This document shows, one piece after another, positions 47,984-57,266 of a stretch of DNA of 64,000 nucleotides (within the stretch, counting starts at the first letter, position 1; every line of letters starts with the position of its first letter). Below the pieces are notes generated by a model. The model made no database searches. It saw nothing but the letters and a program-made list of their open reading frames with translations, and was not told the origin of the DNA. The stretch is from assembly GCF_000299355.1 (NCBI RefSeq), contig NC_018664.1:186001-250000 (forward strand), read 5' to 3'. Position numbers and translations under genes: made by a program. The DNA is from Gottschalkia acidurici 9a (GTDB lineage: Bacteria > Bacillota > Clostridia > Tissierellales > Gottschalkiaceae).

Positions 47984-48255
47984 TTAAGGGTTACAAACTT
48001 TACAGGCAGTATATACCGTGACTTGAGCTTCACTTGACGTAACGTATTGCTTTATTTGTCTTACAGTTCTACAGTTAGCTCTGTGATACTTTTTATCTGT
48101 CATGACTATAACAAGATCTACACTGGTGTTTTGCTGTGATTGAGTATTCGCATTATAGTTATTACTAGCAGTACTTTAGCTTCGTATTGAGCCTTAGCAG
48201 ATTCGTTCCAAAGTCCTGTACTATTATCTTTGGCTTCTGATGTAAAACTAGTATT
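47984..48255 (-). pseudogene. Thermonuclease (SNase-like) C-terminal remnant, copy 1
   Basis: On the minus strand a fragment reads TSFTSEAKDNSTGLWNESAK, the C-terminal end of a staphylococcal-nuclease domain, then after a frameshift STASNNYNANTQSQQNTS and KKYHRANCRTVRQIKQYV ending CKVCNP. The last part is the Ada-like zinc motif found at the end of many secreted Firmicutes nucleases. The catalytic N-terminus is gone. A second copy lies at 53739-54050. Confidence 0.7.
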
Positions 48256-50257: not shown

Positions 50258-50306
50258 ATACTTACCTAGGAATAAACAATGGAGTACTCCTAACGGAGGT
50301 AAGTAT
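50258..50306 (+). promoter_or_regulatory. Inverted repeat overlapping the ribosome site and start of the sigma gene
   Basis: ATACTTACCT (50258-50267) and AGGTAAGTAT (50297-50306) are exact complements. The right arm includes part of the GGAGGT ribosome site and the first two bases of the ATG at 50305. An inner palindrome GGAGTACTCC (50281-50290) can form a second hairpin. This would hide the start of translation, or could be a DNA operator. Confidence 0.55.
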
Positions 50307-50880
50307 GTATATAAAGATAAATCACTTTTACGAACAGATTAAAAGTGGAGGACCAATAGATAGTAAATATAAAGAGGAGATTTTAGAAGATTTGAAACCA
50401 CTGATAATATCGTCAATAAAGAAATACTATAATAATTATCAAATGTACGATGACCTTATTCAAGAAGGATATGAAGTTATATTAACTATATTGCAAGAAA
50501 AGAAACTAGAAAGTGGAAAACACTTCTTAGGATATATAAAGAATGCTTTAAGGTTTCATTACTTAGACAAACATAAAATAAAGGAAAGTTCTATATCTAT
50601 AAATCACAATATAAGTGATGGTGAAAATTTAGAACTAGTAGATATGTTAGAAGATCCTAACTTAACTCAGGACAACATCATAGTAAAAAAAGAAGAACAA
50701 AGAGAACTTTGGAATAGTTTATTAGAACTTACGGAAAGACAACGAGATATAGTTATACTTTTTTATGTAGAGGAAAAGTCCATAAATTATATAGCAAAAA
50801 AGTTGGGTATATCTTACAGAACAGTTGTAAATACAAAAACCACAGCATTAAAAAAGCTTTTTACTTTAAATGAAAGATAG
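50305..50880 (+). CDS. Small sigma-70 family RNA polymerase sigma factor
   Basis: 191 residues with region 2 (YYNNYQMYDDLIQEGYEVIL, core-binding) and region 4 (LTERQRDIVILFYVEEKSIN to LGISYRTVVNTKTTALKKL, a helix-turn-helix for the -35 element). No region 3 or 1.1, so it belongs to the ECF-like/UviA-TcdR-size group. The next genes encode DUF1659, DUF2922 and YvrJ proteins, a set often found with such a sigma factor in Firmicutes; these may be its targets. A hairpin covers its ribosome site. Confidence 0.85.
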   Translation: MYIKINHFYEQIKSGGPIDSKYKEEILEDLKPLIISSIKKYYNNYQMYDDLIQEGYEVILTILQEKKLESGKHFLGYIKNALRFHYLDKHKIKESSISINHNISDGENLELVDMLEDPNLTQDNIIVKKEEQRELWNSLLELTERQRDIVILFYVEEKSINYIAKKLGISYRTVVNTKTTALKKLFTLNER

Positions 50881-51034
50881 ATGTATCAGATACCTAGCTT
50901 TGTTCGTAAGCACACTCAATCCTTTATGGTTACTATATAATCAATTCCTAAATTAAAGAAACTTTGAATTTAATTTTCTTCTTATAGTAAATACATCTCC
51001 TTATTTCTATATAGGGATTAAAGGAGGTGACAAC

Positions 51035-51259
51035 ATGCCAATAACAACAGAAACTAAAAGTTCAAAATTAAAACTTATTTTAGAGAAGGGAAAAAACGAT
51101 AAAGGTGAACCAATCGCAAAATCTAAAACTTTCTCAAATCTAAAACCAGAAGCAACAAATGAAAGCATCTATCAAGTAGCAGATACAATATCTAAGCTAC
51201 AAAAGCTACCCCTTATAGAGGTATCAAGAGTAGATGAAGTAGTAATCTCGAAACAATAA
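51035..51259 (+). CDS. DUF1659 family small protein
   Basis: 74 residues. The pattern SKLKLILEKGKNDKGEPIAK then SKTFSNLKPEATNESIYQVA matches DUF1659, a family of unknown function. ATG behind AAAGGAGG. Usually located beside a DUF2922 gene, as here. Confidence 0.85.
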   Translation: MPITTETKSSKLKLILEKGKNDKGEPIAKSKTFSNLKPEATNESIYQVADTISKLQKLPLIEVSRVDEVVISKQ

Positions 51260-51290
51260 GTAACTACACAGTAGAAAGGAAGGTGATATA

Positions 51291-51512
51291 GTGAAGACTG
51301 AAAAACTACAACTAATATTTAAGAATGAAAGTAACTCAAACGTAACCCTAACTGTAGAAGATCCAAGTAATGAATTAACTGAATTAGAAGTAAAAGCTGC
51401 TATGGAAGATATAGTAAGCGAAGATGTATTTAGAACTAAAACCGGAAATATAGTTTCAATATCAAGAGCAAAAATAGTAACAACTGAGACTAGAGAATTA
51501 GAAGTACAATAA
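51291..51512 (+). CDS. DUF2922 family small protein
   Basis: 73 residues resembling the preceding protein in fold: EKLQLIFKNESNSNVTLTVE, then ELTELEVKAAMEDIVSEDVF and ARIVTTETRELEV-like end. GTG start behind GGAAGGTG, 31 bases after the DUF1659 stop. Function unknown. Confidence 0.85.
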   Translation: MKTEKLQLIFKNESNSNVTLTVEDPSNELTELEVKAAMEDIVSEDVFRTKTGNIVSISRAKIVTTETRELEVQ

Positions 51513-51516
51513 AAAA

Positions 51517-51549
51517 AGGAGAAAGGAGCTGATTATCAGCTCCTTTCTA
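51517..51549 (+). terminator. Hairpin between DUF2922 and yvrJ genes
   Basis: Perfect stem AGAAAGGAGCTGA/TCAGCTCCTTTCT with loop TTA. No T run follows, so it may be an mRNA processing or attenuation element rather than a full terminator. Confidence 0.55.
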
Positions 51550-51579
51550 ACATCCAAATTGAAAGCGAGGCTGATAAAC

Positions 51580-51726
51580 ATGGAGAATATATACACTAAT
51601 GTAGCAAATCTAGGATTTCCTATAGTAGTTTCTATCTATTTGCTAGTTAGGATTGAAGGAAAATTAGACCACCTTACGGAAAGCATAGATAATCTTTCAA
51701 AAGTTATAATTTCTTCAAAGATATAG
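51580..51726 (+). CDS. YvrJ family membrane protein
   Basis: 48 residues, too short for most gene finders. One hydrophobic helix (VANLGFPIVVSIYLLVRIE) followed by the amphipathic tail KLDHLTESIDNLSKVI. This is the YvrJ family pattern, in Bacillus subtilis near the sigO-rsoA sigma system. ATG follows GAAAGCGAGG. The last 50 bases recur, decayed, at 55415-55464. Confidence 0.82.
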   Translation: MENIYTNVANLGFPIVVSIYLLVRIEGKLDHLTESIDNLSKVIISSKI

Positions 51727-52038
51727 GGTCATTTTTTAAAAGACTATAACGGAGAAGAAATAAGAGTATGTATAAATCTCATGAATATTTCTGTTGAAGT
51801 TATAGTCTAAATATATAAAATCAGATGGCAAATTGAAGTGTTTTTTATAGATAAAACAAAATTAAATATAAAAAAGTCTTTGGAGCAACTGAAAATGCTG
51901 TTGCTTCTTTTAATGTAACATAAAGTATAAAAAATGAGTTTTGTAAATAATTTTGTAGTAAAATGTTGAAATACCATATAAATCAATGAGTTCATAAATA
52001 GTTAAAGTTATGTTATAGTGTAGTAAGGAGGTAATTAT
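51727..52038. other. Intergenic stretch with the agr promoter region
   Basis: No gene seen. From 51916 (AACATAAAGTATAAAAAATG) to the start at 52039 the sequence matches the region before the second agr copy (54061-54184), so this block is the duplicated promoter and leader. The ribosome site is AAGGAGG at 52024-52030. Confidence 0.55.
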
Positions 52039-52881
52039 ATGGATATAATGAAGTTTATTGACTTCGCACTAGTAGGAGTGCCAGAAACGACTATGATGTT
52101 GCTTATAGGACTTTTATTAGGTTATGGTAAGGGGTTTTATAAAAGATTAAACTTTTTAATGTTTAGAGTTGTAATAGCAACTGTCTTAATACTTTGTGCT
52201 ATATTCTTTGTTAGAAGCAGATTGACTAGTATACAAGCTATAGGTATGTCTAGTCTTTTAATCTATATAGTAACTTTCAAGAGTTTGTTTGGAATGAATA
52301 TAAGAAAAAGCATAGTAACTGGAAGTCTAGCGATCTTTATAATATCTGCAACTGAAATAGTTACCTTTCCTATACTGAAATACATTGCAGAAGGTAAATA
52401 CTTTGAAGATAGATTTAACGTAACTTTAATTACTAGAATTATACAATTTATAATTTTAATATGCTTACATAAATTTGAGATTTCACTAACTAATATTAGC
52501 GCAGTTAGTAGAGGGTGGTATAGATTAAAAACCAATGAAAAGATCACATCGATATTTGTTATGCTATTACTTATGCTATGTGTTATATTCAACACAAGCT
52601 ATTCTGATTTATGCTTAAAGATAAATATGAACACTTTAAATTCAAAAGACTTGAATATAAATATGACTATATATTTTATAGAAAACTTATTATTTATAGC
52701 AGTAACAGTTTATATCTTAAATAGAACAAAAGATTACTATAAGTATGAAGAAATTCTATTAAAAGGAGAGGATGAGTTGTTACTAAGGTTACTAGATGCA
52801 ACAGATGATAGTGATACTATAAGAAGGTATATAAGATTATGTGAAGCATATTTAGAAAAGTCTATAAAGGAGGTGAAATAA
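52039..52881 (+). CDS. AgrC-like sensor domain protein without kinase domain
   Basis: 280 residues. The start KFIDFALVGVPETTMMLLIG, with its VPE motif in the first membrane helix, and the six to seven membrane segments that follow are what the sensor half of clostridial AgrC histidine kinases looks like. After the last helix (IYFIENLLFIAVTVYIL) only about 50 residues remain (LLRLLDATDDSDTIRRYIRL), too few for a dimerisation and HATPase domain, and none of the N, G1 or G2 boxes are present. The stop is one base before the AgrD-type gene. Role as a peptide receptor or modulator is inference. Confidence 0.68.
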   Translation: MDIMKFIDFALVGVPETTMMLLIGLLLGYGKGFYKRLNFLMFRVVIATVLILCAIFFVRSRLTSIQAIGMSSLLIYIVTFKSLFGMNIRKSIVTGSLAIFIISATEIVTFPILKYIAEGKYFEDRFNVTLITRIIQFIILICLHKFEISLTNISAVSRGWYRLKTNEKITSIFVMLLLMLCVIFNTSYSDLCLKINMNTLNSKDLNINMTIYFIENLLFIAVTVYILNRTKDYYKYEEILLKGEDELLLRLLDATDDSDTIRRYIRLCEAYLEKSIKEVK

Positions 52882-52882
52882 A

Positions 52883-53020
52883 ATGAATAAAAAATTTGCA
52901 AAGATATTAGGGACAGGCTTAGTTGCTTTAGTAGGTGTATTTACTGTGTTTGTACAACAAGCTTCAGCTTGTGCAGTAAATTTTGGAGAAACTAAAATGC
53001 CGAAAGCTTTAAATAAATAG
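52883..53020 (+). CDS. agrD: AgrD-type cyclic lactone autoinducer pro-peptide
   Basis: 45 residues: amphipathic leader (KKFAKILGTGLVALVGVF), then ASACAVNF and the acidic recognition tail GETKMPKALNK. Cys30 and the Phe at 34 are placed to form a five-residue thiolactone ring CAVNF; the P-x-x-L pattern after it (MPKAL) is the site used by AgrB-type proteases. ATG follows AAAGGAGGTG, and the start is one base after the preceding stop. The mature peptide boundaries are predicted, not shown. Confidence 0.85.
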   Translation: MNKKFAKILGTGLVALVGVFTVFVQQASACAVNFGETKMPKALNK

Positions 53021-53072
53021 AGTATGGGGGGAAATCCCCTCAACCTTTATTTTAAAATGAGGGTGAGAATAG

Positions 53073-53639
53073 ATGAGCAGAGTAGTAAAAAAGATAGCTA
53101 ATGATACATATGAATTTAGTCGTGGCAAGTATAGTAAGGAAGATTGGATTGAAATTCTAGAATATATGTTTCATAGAATGACTGTATTTACACTGTTTAT
53201 ACTATCATTAGCTATACTGATATATATTTTTAAGTTAGATATGAACATATATGTATTTACAGGTAGTTTTTTATTATTAAGAGCGAAGTTTGGAGGTGTA
53301 CACTTAGAAAGTGAACTTTTATGTTTCGTTGCAAGTGTAATATTTCCATTTTCAGTATACTTCTTCTTCAAAGACATACATATAAGCAAAATTACAATCC
53401 TAAGCACTTACTTAATTTCTGCACTTATATTATTTAAATTAGGAACAATTGATAATAAAAACAGACAATTAACTATAGAAGCTAAGAAGAGATTCAAAAA
53501 GCAAGGAATGATAGTTTTAACAATACTTCTTATAATAAATATTTTTACATTAAATAAATTTATAACTCTATCTGTTATATTTACAGTCTTAAGTTGTATA
53601 GCAGGTAAAATTAGAAATAGAGAGAAGGCTGAAATTTAG
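53073..53639 (+). CDS. agrB: AgrB-type pro-peptide processing membrane protease
   Basis: 188 residues with five to six membrane segments. The catalytic pair is in LRAKFGGVHLESELLC: His77 and Cys84, the same positions as in Staphylococcus aureus AgrB. It should cut the C-terminal tail of the AgrD-type peptide and close the thiolactone. The start follows ATGAGGGTGAG. Ends in a strong terminator. No AgrA or kinase gene follows, unlike canonical agr. Confidence 0.9.
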   Translation: MSRVVKKIANDTYEFSRGKYSKEDWIEILEYMFHRMTVFTLFILSLAILIYIFKLDMNIYVFTGSFLLLRAKFGGVHLESELLCFVASVIFPFSVYFFFKDIHISKITILSTYLISALILFKLGTIDNKNRQLTIEAKKRFKKQGMIVLTILLIINIFTLNKFITLSVIFTVLSCIAGKIRNREKAEI

Positions 53640-53671
53640 AGTTGTAATATAAGGAGTATGAAGATATATAT

Positions 53672-53719
53672 AGAAAACGAGCAACCTGACTATTAAGTTG
53701 GTTGCTCGTTTTCATTTTA
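53672..53719 (+). terminator. Terminator of agr-like copy 1
   Basis: Stem GAAAACGAGCAACC/GGTTGCTCGTTTTC with loop of about 15 bases and TTTTAT. Near-identical to the one at 55335-55382. Confidence 0.85.
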
Positions 53720-53738: not shown

Positions 53739-54050
53739 CTAAGGATTACAAACTTTACAGGAAGTACATCCCATATTTTGATCTTCACTTGCTGTAATAT
53801 ATTGTCTCATTTGTTTTACAGTCCTACAATTAGCCTTGTGATACTTTTTACCTGTCATAGTTGTAACAAGATTTCAACTAGTATTTTGCTGTGATTGAGT
53901 ATTTGTACTGTAATTACTATTAGCAGTATTAGTAACACTTTTACTAGCTTTATATTGAGCCTTAGCAGATTCATTCCAAAGTCCAGTACTATTATTTCTA
54001 GCTTCAGATGCAAAACTAGTAAATGTATTATTATATTTTACGCCTGGATT
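53739..54050 (-). pseudogene. Thermonuclease (SNase-like) C-terminal remnant, copy 2
   Basis: The minus strand reads NPGVKYNNTFTSFASEARNN and STGLWNESAKAQYKASK, typical of the end of an SNase domain, then NTQSQQNTS, a TGA stop at 53874-53876, and KKYHKANCRTVKQMRQY to GCTSCKVCNP, a Cys/His zinc motif. The N-terminal catalytic part is absent. Better kept than copy 1 at 47984-48255. It separates the two agr-like copies, in the opposite direction. Confidence 0.75.
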
Positions 54051-54184
54051 TTAAATAACTGTAATATAAAGTATAAAAAATAAGTTTTATAGACAAATTT
54101 GTAATAAAATGATGAAATATAATATAAATGAATGGGTTCCCAGGTAACTAGATTAATGTTAGCATATAGTAGAGGGGGTATTAT

Positions 54185-55012
54185 ATGGATGAGATGAAGT
54201 TCATCGACATCGTACTAGTCGGAGTACCAGAAATAACTATTATGTTAATTATAGGACTTTTGCTAGGTTATGGTAAAGAGTTTTATAAAAGATTAAACTT
54301 TTTAATATTTAGAGTTGTAATAGCAAATGTCTTAATACTTTGCATTATATTCTTTGCTAGAAGTAGATTGACTAACATACAAGCTATAGGTATATCTAGC
54401 CTCTTAGCTTATATAGTGACTTTCAGAAGTTTATTTAGAATGAATATAAGAAAAAGTATAATAATTGGAAGTTTAGTAATGTTTATAATATTTTCAACTG
54501 AAATAATCACCTTTCCTATACTGAAATACATTGCAGAAGGTAAATACTTTGAAGATAGATTTAACGTAACTTTAATTACTAGAATTATACAAATTATAAT
54601 TTTAATATGCTTACATAAATTTGAAATTTCACTAACTAATAATAGTGTAGTTAGTAGAGGTTGTTATAGATTAAAAGCTAATGAAAAAATCATAATGATA
54701 CTTCTTATATTTAACTCAACCTATACAGATTTATACTTAAAGATAAATATGAACATTTTAGATCCAAAAGACTTGAATCTAAATATGACTATATATTTTA
54801 TAGAAAATCTATTATTTATAGCAGTAACAGTTTATATCTTAAATAGAACAAAAGATTACTATAAGTATGAAGAAACTTTACTAAAAGAAGGTGATGAGTT
54901 GTTACTAAGATTATTAGATGCAACAGATGATAGTGATACTATAAAAAGATATAAAAGAGTATGTGAAGCATATTTAGAAAAGTCTATAAAAGAGGCGGAA
55001 TCAAATGAATAA
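54185..55012 (+). CDS. AgrC-like sensor domain protein without kinase, paralogue 2
   Basis: 275 residues, closely alike to the protein at 52039-52881 over its whole length, with the same VPE motif start (VGVPEITIMLIIGLLLGYG). One membrane segment is shortened by about eight residues (IIMILLIFNSTYTD against ITSIFVMLLLMLCVIFNTSYSD, the latter shown by its ends only). The frame is intact although the neighbouring peptide and AgrB copies are dead. ATG behind AGAGGGGG. Stop overlaps the start of the decayed agrD by eight bases. Whether it is still used is not known. Confidence 0.65.
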   Translation: MDEMKFIDIVLVGVPEITIMLIIGLLLGYGKEFYKRLNFLIFRVVIANVLILCIIFFARSRLTNIQAIGISSLLAYIVTFRSLFRMNIRKSIIIGSLVMFIIFSTEIITFPILKYIAEGKYFEDRFNVTLITRIIQIIILICLHKFEISLTNNSVVSRGCYRLKANEKIIMILLIFNSTYTDLYLKINMNILDPKDLNLNMTIYFIENLLFIAVTVYILNRTKDYYKYEETLLKEGDELLLRLLDATDDSDTIKRYKRVCEAYLEKSIKEAESNE

Positions 55013-55142
55013 AAGATTTGCAAAGATATTAGGGACAGGCTTAGTTGCATTAGTAGGTGTATTTACTATGGTTGTATAATAAGCTTTAGTTTGTTCATAA
55101 TCTTTTGTAGAAACTAAAATGCCGAAAGTTTTAAATAAGTAG
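55005..55142 (+). pseudogene. Decayed AgrD-type pro-peptide, copy 2
   Basis: Same length (138 bases) as the intact copy and the same leader (KRFAKILGTGLVALVGVF), but the two glutamine codons CAA-CAA are TAA-TAA, and a further TAA lies in the ring region. The tail ETKMPKVLNK is still readable after the stops. Cannot make a signal peptide. Confidence 0.85.
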
Positions 55143-55154
55143 GGTATAAGGAGT

Positions 55155-55303
55155 GATTCAAAAAGCAAAGAATGATAGCTTTAACAATATTTCTTATAAC
55201 AAATATTTTCACATTAAATAAATTTATAACTCTATCTGTTATATTTACAGTCTTAAGTTGTCTAGCAGGTAAAATTAGAAATAGAGAGAAGGCCGAAGCT
55301 TAG
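55155..55303 (+). pseudogene. AgrB-type protease C-terminal remnant, copy 2
   Basis: Reads FKKQRMIALTIFLITNIFTL to KIRNREKAEA, the last 50 residues of the intact AgrB. The first ~420 bases, including the catalytic His and Cys, have been deleted; the junction is near 55150. The terminator that follows is kept. Confidence 0.85.
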
Positions 55304-55334
55304 AATTGTAACATAAGGAGTATGAAGATATATA

Positions 55335-55382
55335 TAGAAAACGAGCAACCTGACTATTAAGTTGGTTGCTCGTTTTCATTTT
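55335..55382 (+). terminator. Terminator of agr-like copy 2
   Basis: The same hairpin and flanks as at 53672-53719; similarity ends just after the T run. Confidence 0.8.
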
Positions 55383-55394
55383 ATCTAATTCTTA

Positions 55395-56655: not shown

Positions 56656-56678
56656 GTTTAAAAAAGGAGTTGATAATA

Positions 56679-57266
56679 TTGGATAAAATGAAAGAATACT
56701 ATAAAAATGGCATAATGGCTTTAATCCCGACCTATATAGAAATGATAGGAGATTCAACAAAAGTTATAACCAAAAACTCTAACGAATATTACATATATAA
56801 AAGTATAAGGGCAATAATAAATCTTCTAGCAAGATATAACCATATTGATTTGAAGGAAACTAGAAGATTTTATGGAAATAAGATAGGCTGTAAAAACTTA
56901 ATTCCAATACCTTTTAGTAAAGAAAATATATTTGCTCCTATAAAAGTAAGAGCGGCAATAAGTAAAAATGATAGTTCATTTGGATATATAAATATAAAAT
57001 ATATAGAGAAGATAAAAGAAAAAGATGAACTAGGAGTAATTTATCTTAATGATGGTGTACAGATAGATACATATCAAAGACTAGAAACTGTAGAGAAACA
57101 CATAAGAAACGGAAAGTTGGTAGAAAGTATATATAATGGTAGAGGTAACGTTATAGTATCAGAAAGAAATATCGATTTTTATCAAGATTACAATACTCCA
57201 GCAACAAAAGGCGACATAGCAGCCCTTAGAAATGATATACTGTATATGATAAAAGAAGTTAAGTGA
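56679..57266 (+). CDS. ComK-like protein under LexA control
   Basis: 195 residues. The middle, ETRRFYGNKIGCKN then IFAPIKVRAAISKNDSSFGYINI, and VIYLNDGVQIDTYQRLETVE follow the pattern of ComK, the competence master activator (CRFFGSSxxGRK, PPI, GWIS, VTFSNGK, RTAxL). Length is close to ComK of Bacillus subtilis (192). The C-terminal helix (ATKGDIAALRNDILYMIKEV) is extra. TTG at 56679 is nine bases behind AAAGGAG. It lies upstream of recD2 and comF. The family call is mine by eye and needs a profile search. Confidence 0.55.
   Translation: MDKMKEYYKNGIMALIPTYIEMIGDSTKVITKNSNEYYIYKSIRAIINLLARYNHIDLKETRRFYGNKIGCKNLIPIPFSKENIFAPIKVRAAISKNDSSFGYINIKYIEKIKEKDELGVIYLNDGVQIDTYQRLETVEKHIRNGKLVESIYNGRGNVIVSERNIDFYQDYNTPATKGDIAALRNDILYMIKEVK

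Follow-up and report, generated by a model that had tools for sequence, protein, structure and literature searches.

We found that a 280-residue membrane protein of C. acidurici, encoded immediately upstream of agrD and agrB, shares its sensor domain with a lineage of histidine kinases and has lost the kinase. We refer to this domain as the PE domain, a name coined here after its Pro-Glu motif. Because kinase-less proteins of this type are conserved as a pair with AgrD, and because they align end to end with PE kinases, the protein is, judging from these comparisons, a maintained member of a receptor lineage and not a chance truncation. Our preferred reading, which we hold tentatively and place slightly short of even, is that it derives from a PE-type Agr receptor that lost its kinase, that it is dedicated to the peptide from the adjoining agrD, and that it gives its output by contact. 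Agr systems, as described, comprise AgrB, AgrD, the kinase AgrC, and the regulator AgrA.

The module lies within C2:186001-250000 of C. acidurici 9a, whose replicons have 3,105,335 and 2,913 bases (according to the available portion of PMC3519856); we call this whole 64,000-nucleotide stretch, which was analyzed together, the window. An earlier note on this DNA had described a sensor-like protein, agrD, agrB, and a terminator, in that order. The sequence and its list of open reading frames (ORFs) have all of these parts at the described positions and in this order from 5' to 3' (Table 1), and the tight coupling that had been claimed amounts to a single base (52882) between the membrane-protein gene and agrD. 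The note's estimate of about 50 cytosolic residues at the end of the protein also held up: no hydrophobic peak follows after about residue 229, which leaves about 51 residues. As had been proposed, there is no HATPase (GHKL) domain in the protein (no Pfam match) and no kinase nearby: none of the 24 matches to HATPase_c_5 in the genome, and none of the 49 matches to our split-kinase profile, are within the window. No AgrA-like ORF was seen on reading the ORF list from 46 to 60 kb.

The other parts of the module could be assigned to known families. AgrD only just reaches the curated cut-off of TIGR04223 (19 bits), and its ring is predicted, by analogy, to be C-A-V-N-F. AgrB matches PF04647 with E = 3.4e-22 and 79.1 bits (the cut-off is 23), and its H77 and C84, which we take to be the catalytic residues, are invariant in all five AgrBs that the genome encodes. 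The terminator hairpin is far more stable than expected (z = -8.0, with none of 200 shuffled sequences folding as well). A weaker hairpin lies between agrD and agrB (-17.4 kcal/mol and z = -2.95 for the fold of 53015-53060, with 4 of 200 shuffles as good). Both of the intact loci in C. acidurici carry a hairpin after agrD, and the one at the locus outside the window (L003 2485-2530) has z = -5.73. The hairpin at 53025-53042 is a possible attenuator or processing site, and perhaps it sets the ratio of agrD to agrB.

We also noted several features of the surrounding DNA. Upstream of the module (50305-51726) are a sigma-factor gene and then genes from the DUF1659, DUF2922, and YvrJ families. Two similar ORFs of 39 amino acids with a Cys/His pattern flank the region (47984-48103 and 53739-53858, both on the - strand) and are perhaps remnants of a repeated gene. 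Further downstream, a protein of 198 amino acids (56670-57266) has a weak match to ComK (E = 0.006), which is below the cut-off.

Table 1. Features of the module and of its second copy, with positions in the window
Feature	Positions	Strand	Basis
Kinase-less multi-pass membrane protein, 280 aa, with PE sensor domain and ~51-residue tail	52039-52881	+	ORF, profile matches
agrD, 45-aa pro-peptide	52883-53020	+	NCBIfam TIGR04223, 19.0 bits
Hairpin between agrD and agrB	53025-53042	+	Terminator-like site, fold of 53015-53060
agrB, 188-aa membrane peptidase	53073-53639	+	Pfam AgrB match, H77 and C84 kept
Terminator hairpin, then T-rich stretch	53673-53713	+	Fold of -25.7 kcal/mol
Second membrane protein (275 aa; BLAST identity 83%; one hydrophobic helix shorter by 8 residues)	54185-55012	+	
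agrD remnant of second copy, in-frame stops	55005-55141	+	Read from sequence
agrB remnant of second copy, C-terminal part	55147-55303	+	BLASTN of both copies, ORF 55172-55303

C. acidurici has two more copies of the membrane protein. A second, decaying copy of the module follows the first (54056-55390; 86% DNA identity over the first part and 94% over the end), and BLASTN of both copies shows that about 457 bp of agrB are missing ahead of the remaining C-terminal part. The third locus, at C2:1510168, is intact: its membrane protein shows 48% identity, and after it come an agrD-like ORF that overlaps the membrane-protein gene by four bases, an ORF for a soluble protein of 95 amino acids (L003 2538-2825), and agrB. 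The agrD-like ORF has no match to TIGR04223 and was recognized from its position and pattern only. By eye, the 95-residue protein had resembled the C-terminal domain of Spo0A; we rejected this, as Pfam gave no such hit and no credible match of any kind. Between the two window copies, dN/dS is 0.31 for the whole membrane protein and 0.28 for the tail; against the third locus, the values are 0.30 and 0.34. We considered whether the window protein might be a functionless, decaying remnant of a kinase gene, as the second copy, with its stops in agrD, its missing part of agrB, and its shortened helix, might suggest. The dN/dS of 0.31 between the window copies, the intact third locus, and the equally long relatives in 13 of the 14 genomes of another family (see below) all argue against this, and we consider it extremely improbable.

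The 280-residue protein does not match any model in Pfam or NCBIfam, and PHROGs gave just two matches at the level of chance. When we searched 249 genomes of the order with the three paralogs from C. acidurici, three genomes had matches: C. acidurici itself, which was the only one with strong matches, and two with weak partial matches (L018 and L019, over 69 and 53 positions), which we set aside after listing their ORFs. Across the phylum, 5 of 398 genomes had matches, namely C. acidurici and four with short hits. On reading, three of these short hits (L157, L158, and L160) were PE proteins that adjoin a separate kinase.

The link to the PE domain came from the neighbors of agrB. Relatives of the window's AgrB are found in 44 of the 249 genomes of the order, and they led us to membrane proteins of about 150-160 amino acids that adjoin agrB and share their N-terminal domain with histidine kinases, some of which adjoin agrB as well (profile comparison, probability 97.2). 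The profile of this PE family matches residues 1-120 of the three C. acidurici proteins with a score of 55.1, as compared to a maximum of 27.7 for the reversed profile and 40 column-shuffled versions, which places the window protein in the PE family. The earlier note had viewed the protein as resembling the peptide-binding half of AgrC, and this is partly right: its multi-pass sensor domain shares homology with the sensor portion of the PE-type receptor kinases, but two ordinary AgrC kinases encoded in this genome did not match it in direct profile comparison. The window protein is related to a sensor lineage other than ordinary AgrC, to which its links are at best distant.

Structural searches added little. 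Searching the PDB with the PE alignment gave one chance hit (E = 0.82), and AlphaFold models of the three paralogs had a mean pLDDT of 41.3, too low to be of use. We also considered whether the module came from a phage or a plasmid, and we rejected this idea: tblastn found no relatives of the membrane protein in phages, plasmids, genome contigs, or viral contigs, and AgrB had no match in plasmids or viral contigs and just three partial matches in phages (65-71% of the query at 24-34% identity).

To describe where the PE domain occurs, we searched 391 genomes of the class and obtained 45 matches in 35 genomes. The corresponding frames were 214 amino acids or less in 39 cases, 287 in one case, and 456-462 in five cases. 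We then read 50 neighborhoods, which were chosen from the hits and do not amount to a census; a PE ORF was absent from one of these loci. Considering PE ORFs of at least 100 amino acids, with GGDEF called by its motif and AgrB and kinases by our own HMMs, there were 52. The PE domain is fused to a kinase in 6 of these, and in 13 it is a protein of its own whose neighbor is a kinase with two transmembrane helices and about 280-310 amino acids (one of these kinases is cut off by the end of the contig), so the sensor part does exist as a subunit of its own. Another 14 have an ORF with the GGDEF motif no more than 2.5 kb away, 8 are near another kinase ORF of at least 350 amino acids, 7 are accompanied by AgrB only, and 4 have no kinase, GGDEF, or AgrB.

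The 14 PE loci of the GGDEF type (L098, L100, L101, L107, L108, L116, L125, L126, L130, L131, L132, L134, L138, and L143) have AgrB next to PE, and in most of them AgrD lies between the GGDEF ORF and AgrB. This arrangement may link Agr peptides to c-di-GMP enzymes; we found no paper on such a link among the top matches in the openly licensed literature.

The 13 separate PE proteins raise the possibility that the window protein is a co-receptor, which would pair in a heterodimer with a kinase from another locus and alter how that kinase responds to the peptide. A kinase of 431 amino acids (C2:883844-885139) matches an alignment of 18 kinase-less relatives, described below, with a score of 77.2 (nulls of 40.7 or less). 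However, the three C. acidurici proteins by themselves do not significantly match this kinase (probability 3.9), and there is no kinase near the window locus. The PE profile also detected no PE kinase in C. acidurici, although this is a weak argument, as it failed to detect the window protein as well. We consider a co-receptor to be fairly improbable. For another kinase, at C2:67887, the scores were 34.0 with the PE profile and 40.1 with the 18 relatives; these two figures have no null.

One of the four PE ORFs with no kinase, GGDEF, or AgrB nearby, L094, has 282 amino acids and is followed by agrD. The three C. acidurici proteins match it over residues 1-183 (probability 89). In the family that L094's genome belongs to, which is distant from C. 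acidurici, 13 of 14 genomes encode kinase-less relatives of about 280 amino acids, for a total of 18 copies including L094 (frames of 279-301 amino acids). The C. acidurici proteins align with these 18 over residues 1-270 (score 85.1, nulls of 44.1 or less). When all 21 kinase-less proteins were pooled and compared to the six fused PE kinases, they aligned over their full length with the membrane portion and the DHp domain of the kinases (268 columns, score 115.9, nulls of 35.6 or less).

The earlier note had proposed a survey of other genomes for the same three-gene order. The membrane protein followed by agrD does recur, in every copy in this other family: an AgrD-like gene lies 37-615 bp downstream in 18 of 18 cases. 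However, the conserved pair does not include agrB, as none adjoins any of the 18 copies in the stretches that we read (about 1.5 kb on each side, or less at contig ends). The 18th AgrD peptide (L177) contains the sequence of another (L180), and all 17 of the distinct peptides that we scored pass TIGR04223 (37.5-57.6 bits, as compared to the cut-off of 19). The ring position is Cys in 13 of the AgrDs and Ser in 5. Directly upstream of the membrane protein, we read an XRE-type helix-turn-helix regulator at all 13 group-1 loci and a STAS-type protein at 3 of the 5 group-2 loci; these labels come from reading the sequences and not from a family search. No such upstream regulator was seen at the C. 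acidurici loci.

The pairing with AgrD without an adjoining AgrB, in 18 of 18 copies, might also indicate that these proteins are not receptors and that they aid or replace AgrB in the processing or export of AgrD. Short PE proteins often adjoin agrB, and three of the genomes (G332, G1005, and G1006) showed no AgrB at all. However, these three are drafts in many contigs, and one of the drafts is 55% complete; 11 of the 14 genomes in this family encode AgrB elsewhere; and C. acidurici has AgrB next door. Also, this domain serves as the sensor in histidine kinases. A role in maturation or export therefore seems improbable.

The tail of the window protein is probably the remnant of a DHp domain that has lost its histidine, as judged by how it aligns. 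At the aligned DHp position, the six fused PE kinases have His followed by Asp or Glu. In the kinase-less proteins, this position is Asp (the three C. acidurici proteins), Asn (13 of the 18 relatives), or Arg (the other 5), and it is followed by a Glu that is invariant in 21 of 21. Taken by itself, the match of the tail to DHp is no more than suggestive: the scores in five comparisons were 29.8, 30.8, 20.5, 26.6, and 27.0, while the maxima of the nulls, in the same order, were 23.8, 30.2, 14.2, 22.2, and 28.5. The second half of the C. acidurici proteins by itself did not match kinases significantly. Having neither the phosphoacceptor His nor the HATPase domain, which are two of the AgrC features that we tested, the window protein is not an AgrC by definition, yet it is of AgrC-type descent.

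The tail also bears on whether the protein is a decoy or an immunity protein, which would bind the cell's own cyclic peptide and keep it away from a catalytic AgrC, or else shield the producer from an inhibitory peptide. A sensor domain without the catalytic part would suit this role, and there are complete Agr kinases in the same genome. Furthermore, in Clostridium thermocellum, a cyclic lactone of the AgrD type slows growth at 50 uM while the linear peptide does not (as stated in the available portion of PMC5322536). However, conservation of the tail would serve no purpose in a pure sink, and the tail is constrained and keeps its invariant Glu. We consider a decoy or immunity protein to be unlikely.

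We return to a kinase-less receptor for the adjoining peptide. AgrB is established to cut and cyclize AgrD, and the window's AgrB would process the adjoining AgrD to a cyclic peptide. This would bind the multi-pass sensor domain of the kinase-less receptor. The short DHp-like stub, which would be helical and which has neither the phosphoacceptor His nor the ATPase, would then contact a cytosolic partner or another receptor and give an output without autophosphorylation. The gene order, the homology, the lack of the ATPase and of His at the aligned position, and the conservation over a long time are observed in the sequences, while we infer the binding of the peptide, the direction of its effect, and the identity of the partner. 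More broadly, there might be a class of Agr systems in which the receptor for the cyclic peptide is an AgrC-type descendant without His or ATPase and the output is by contact, for instance with the helix-turn-helix regulator encoded directly upstream at the group-1 loci of the other family; we view this generalization as possible but doubtful. If true, it would provide the missing receptor for orphan clostridial AgrD peptides, possibly including the lactone that slows the growth of C. thermocellum.

Elsewhere in the C. acidurici genome, there is another set of kinase-less proteins, at L152 3491-9330 (G000:C2:750490-756329). Here, three membrane proteins encoded in tandem (277, 277, and 272 amino acids) are 50-63% identical to each other, and they match a kinase encoded three genes on (47-52% identity over 167-172 residues). 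They keep the QH motif and have no HATPase domain. The tandem genes are followed by a response-regulator-like ORF, an ORF of 84 amino acids, and the kinase (338 amino acids), with agrD and agrB on the other strand. On the basis of these similarities, L152 is a second and separate case of kinase-less AgrC-like proteins.

Some clostridial AgrD peptides have no known receptor, and a conserved, kinase-less, receptor-like protein that is paired with AgrD is a concrete candidate for their partner. Among the top matches in the openly licensed literature, we found no paper that describes an AgrC without a kinase or a protein partner for an orphan AgrD. Such proteins raise the question of how a receptor works after the loss of both the phosphoacceptor and the ATPase.

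Compared to known systems, the window protein resembles AgrC in that it is a multi-pass sensor beside agrD and agrB whose tail aligns with the DHp domain of PE kinases. It differs in having no HATPase domain, in the replacement of His by Asp, Asn, or Arg across the kinase-less set, and in having no response regulator nearby. The fused and split PE kinases that lie beside AgrB in Clostridia have the same N-terminal sensor, which in the split form is a separate protein, but they have a kinase with His and HATPase in the same gene or the next one. Two systems described in the available portion of PMC3901668 likewise lack a complete pair of receptor and regulator: agr1 of Clostridioides difficile, which consists of agrB1 and agrD1 only, and agr3 of the phage phiCDHM1. 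Unlike the window locus, agr1 has no receptor gene, and the AgrC of phiCDHM1 is the reverse of the window protein, as it has HATPase and, as published, no identified receptor domain. A further parallel is the orphan AgrD Clo1313_2818 of C. thermocellum, which also lies outside an apparent agr operon. In the available portion of PMC5322536, mass spectrometry proved that its product is a cyclic lactone formed by residues S25-F29, with Y30 and P35 after the ring in the precursor; no candidate for AgrB, AgrC, or AgrA is identified there and no receptor is proposed. The AgrDs behind two of the kinase-less proteins (L178 and L179) share S25, F29, Y30, and P35 with Clo1313_2818 (positions counted by eye), and from this similarity we predict a tie between the kinase-less set and the C. 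thermocellum peptide. Because this peptide is known and has been synthesized, the question of how such a receptor works can be tested directly in C. thermocellum.
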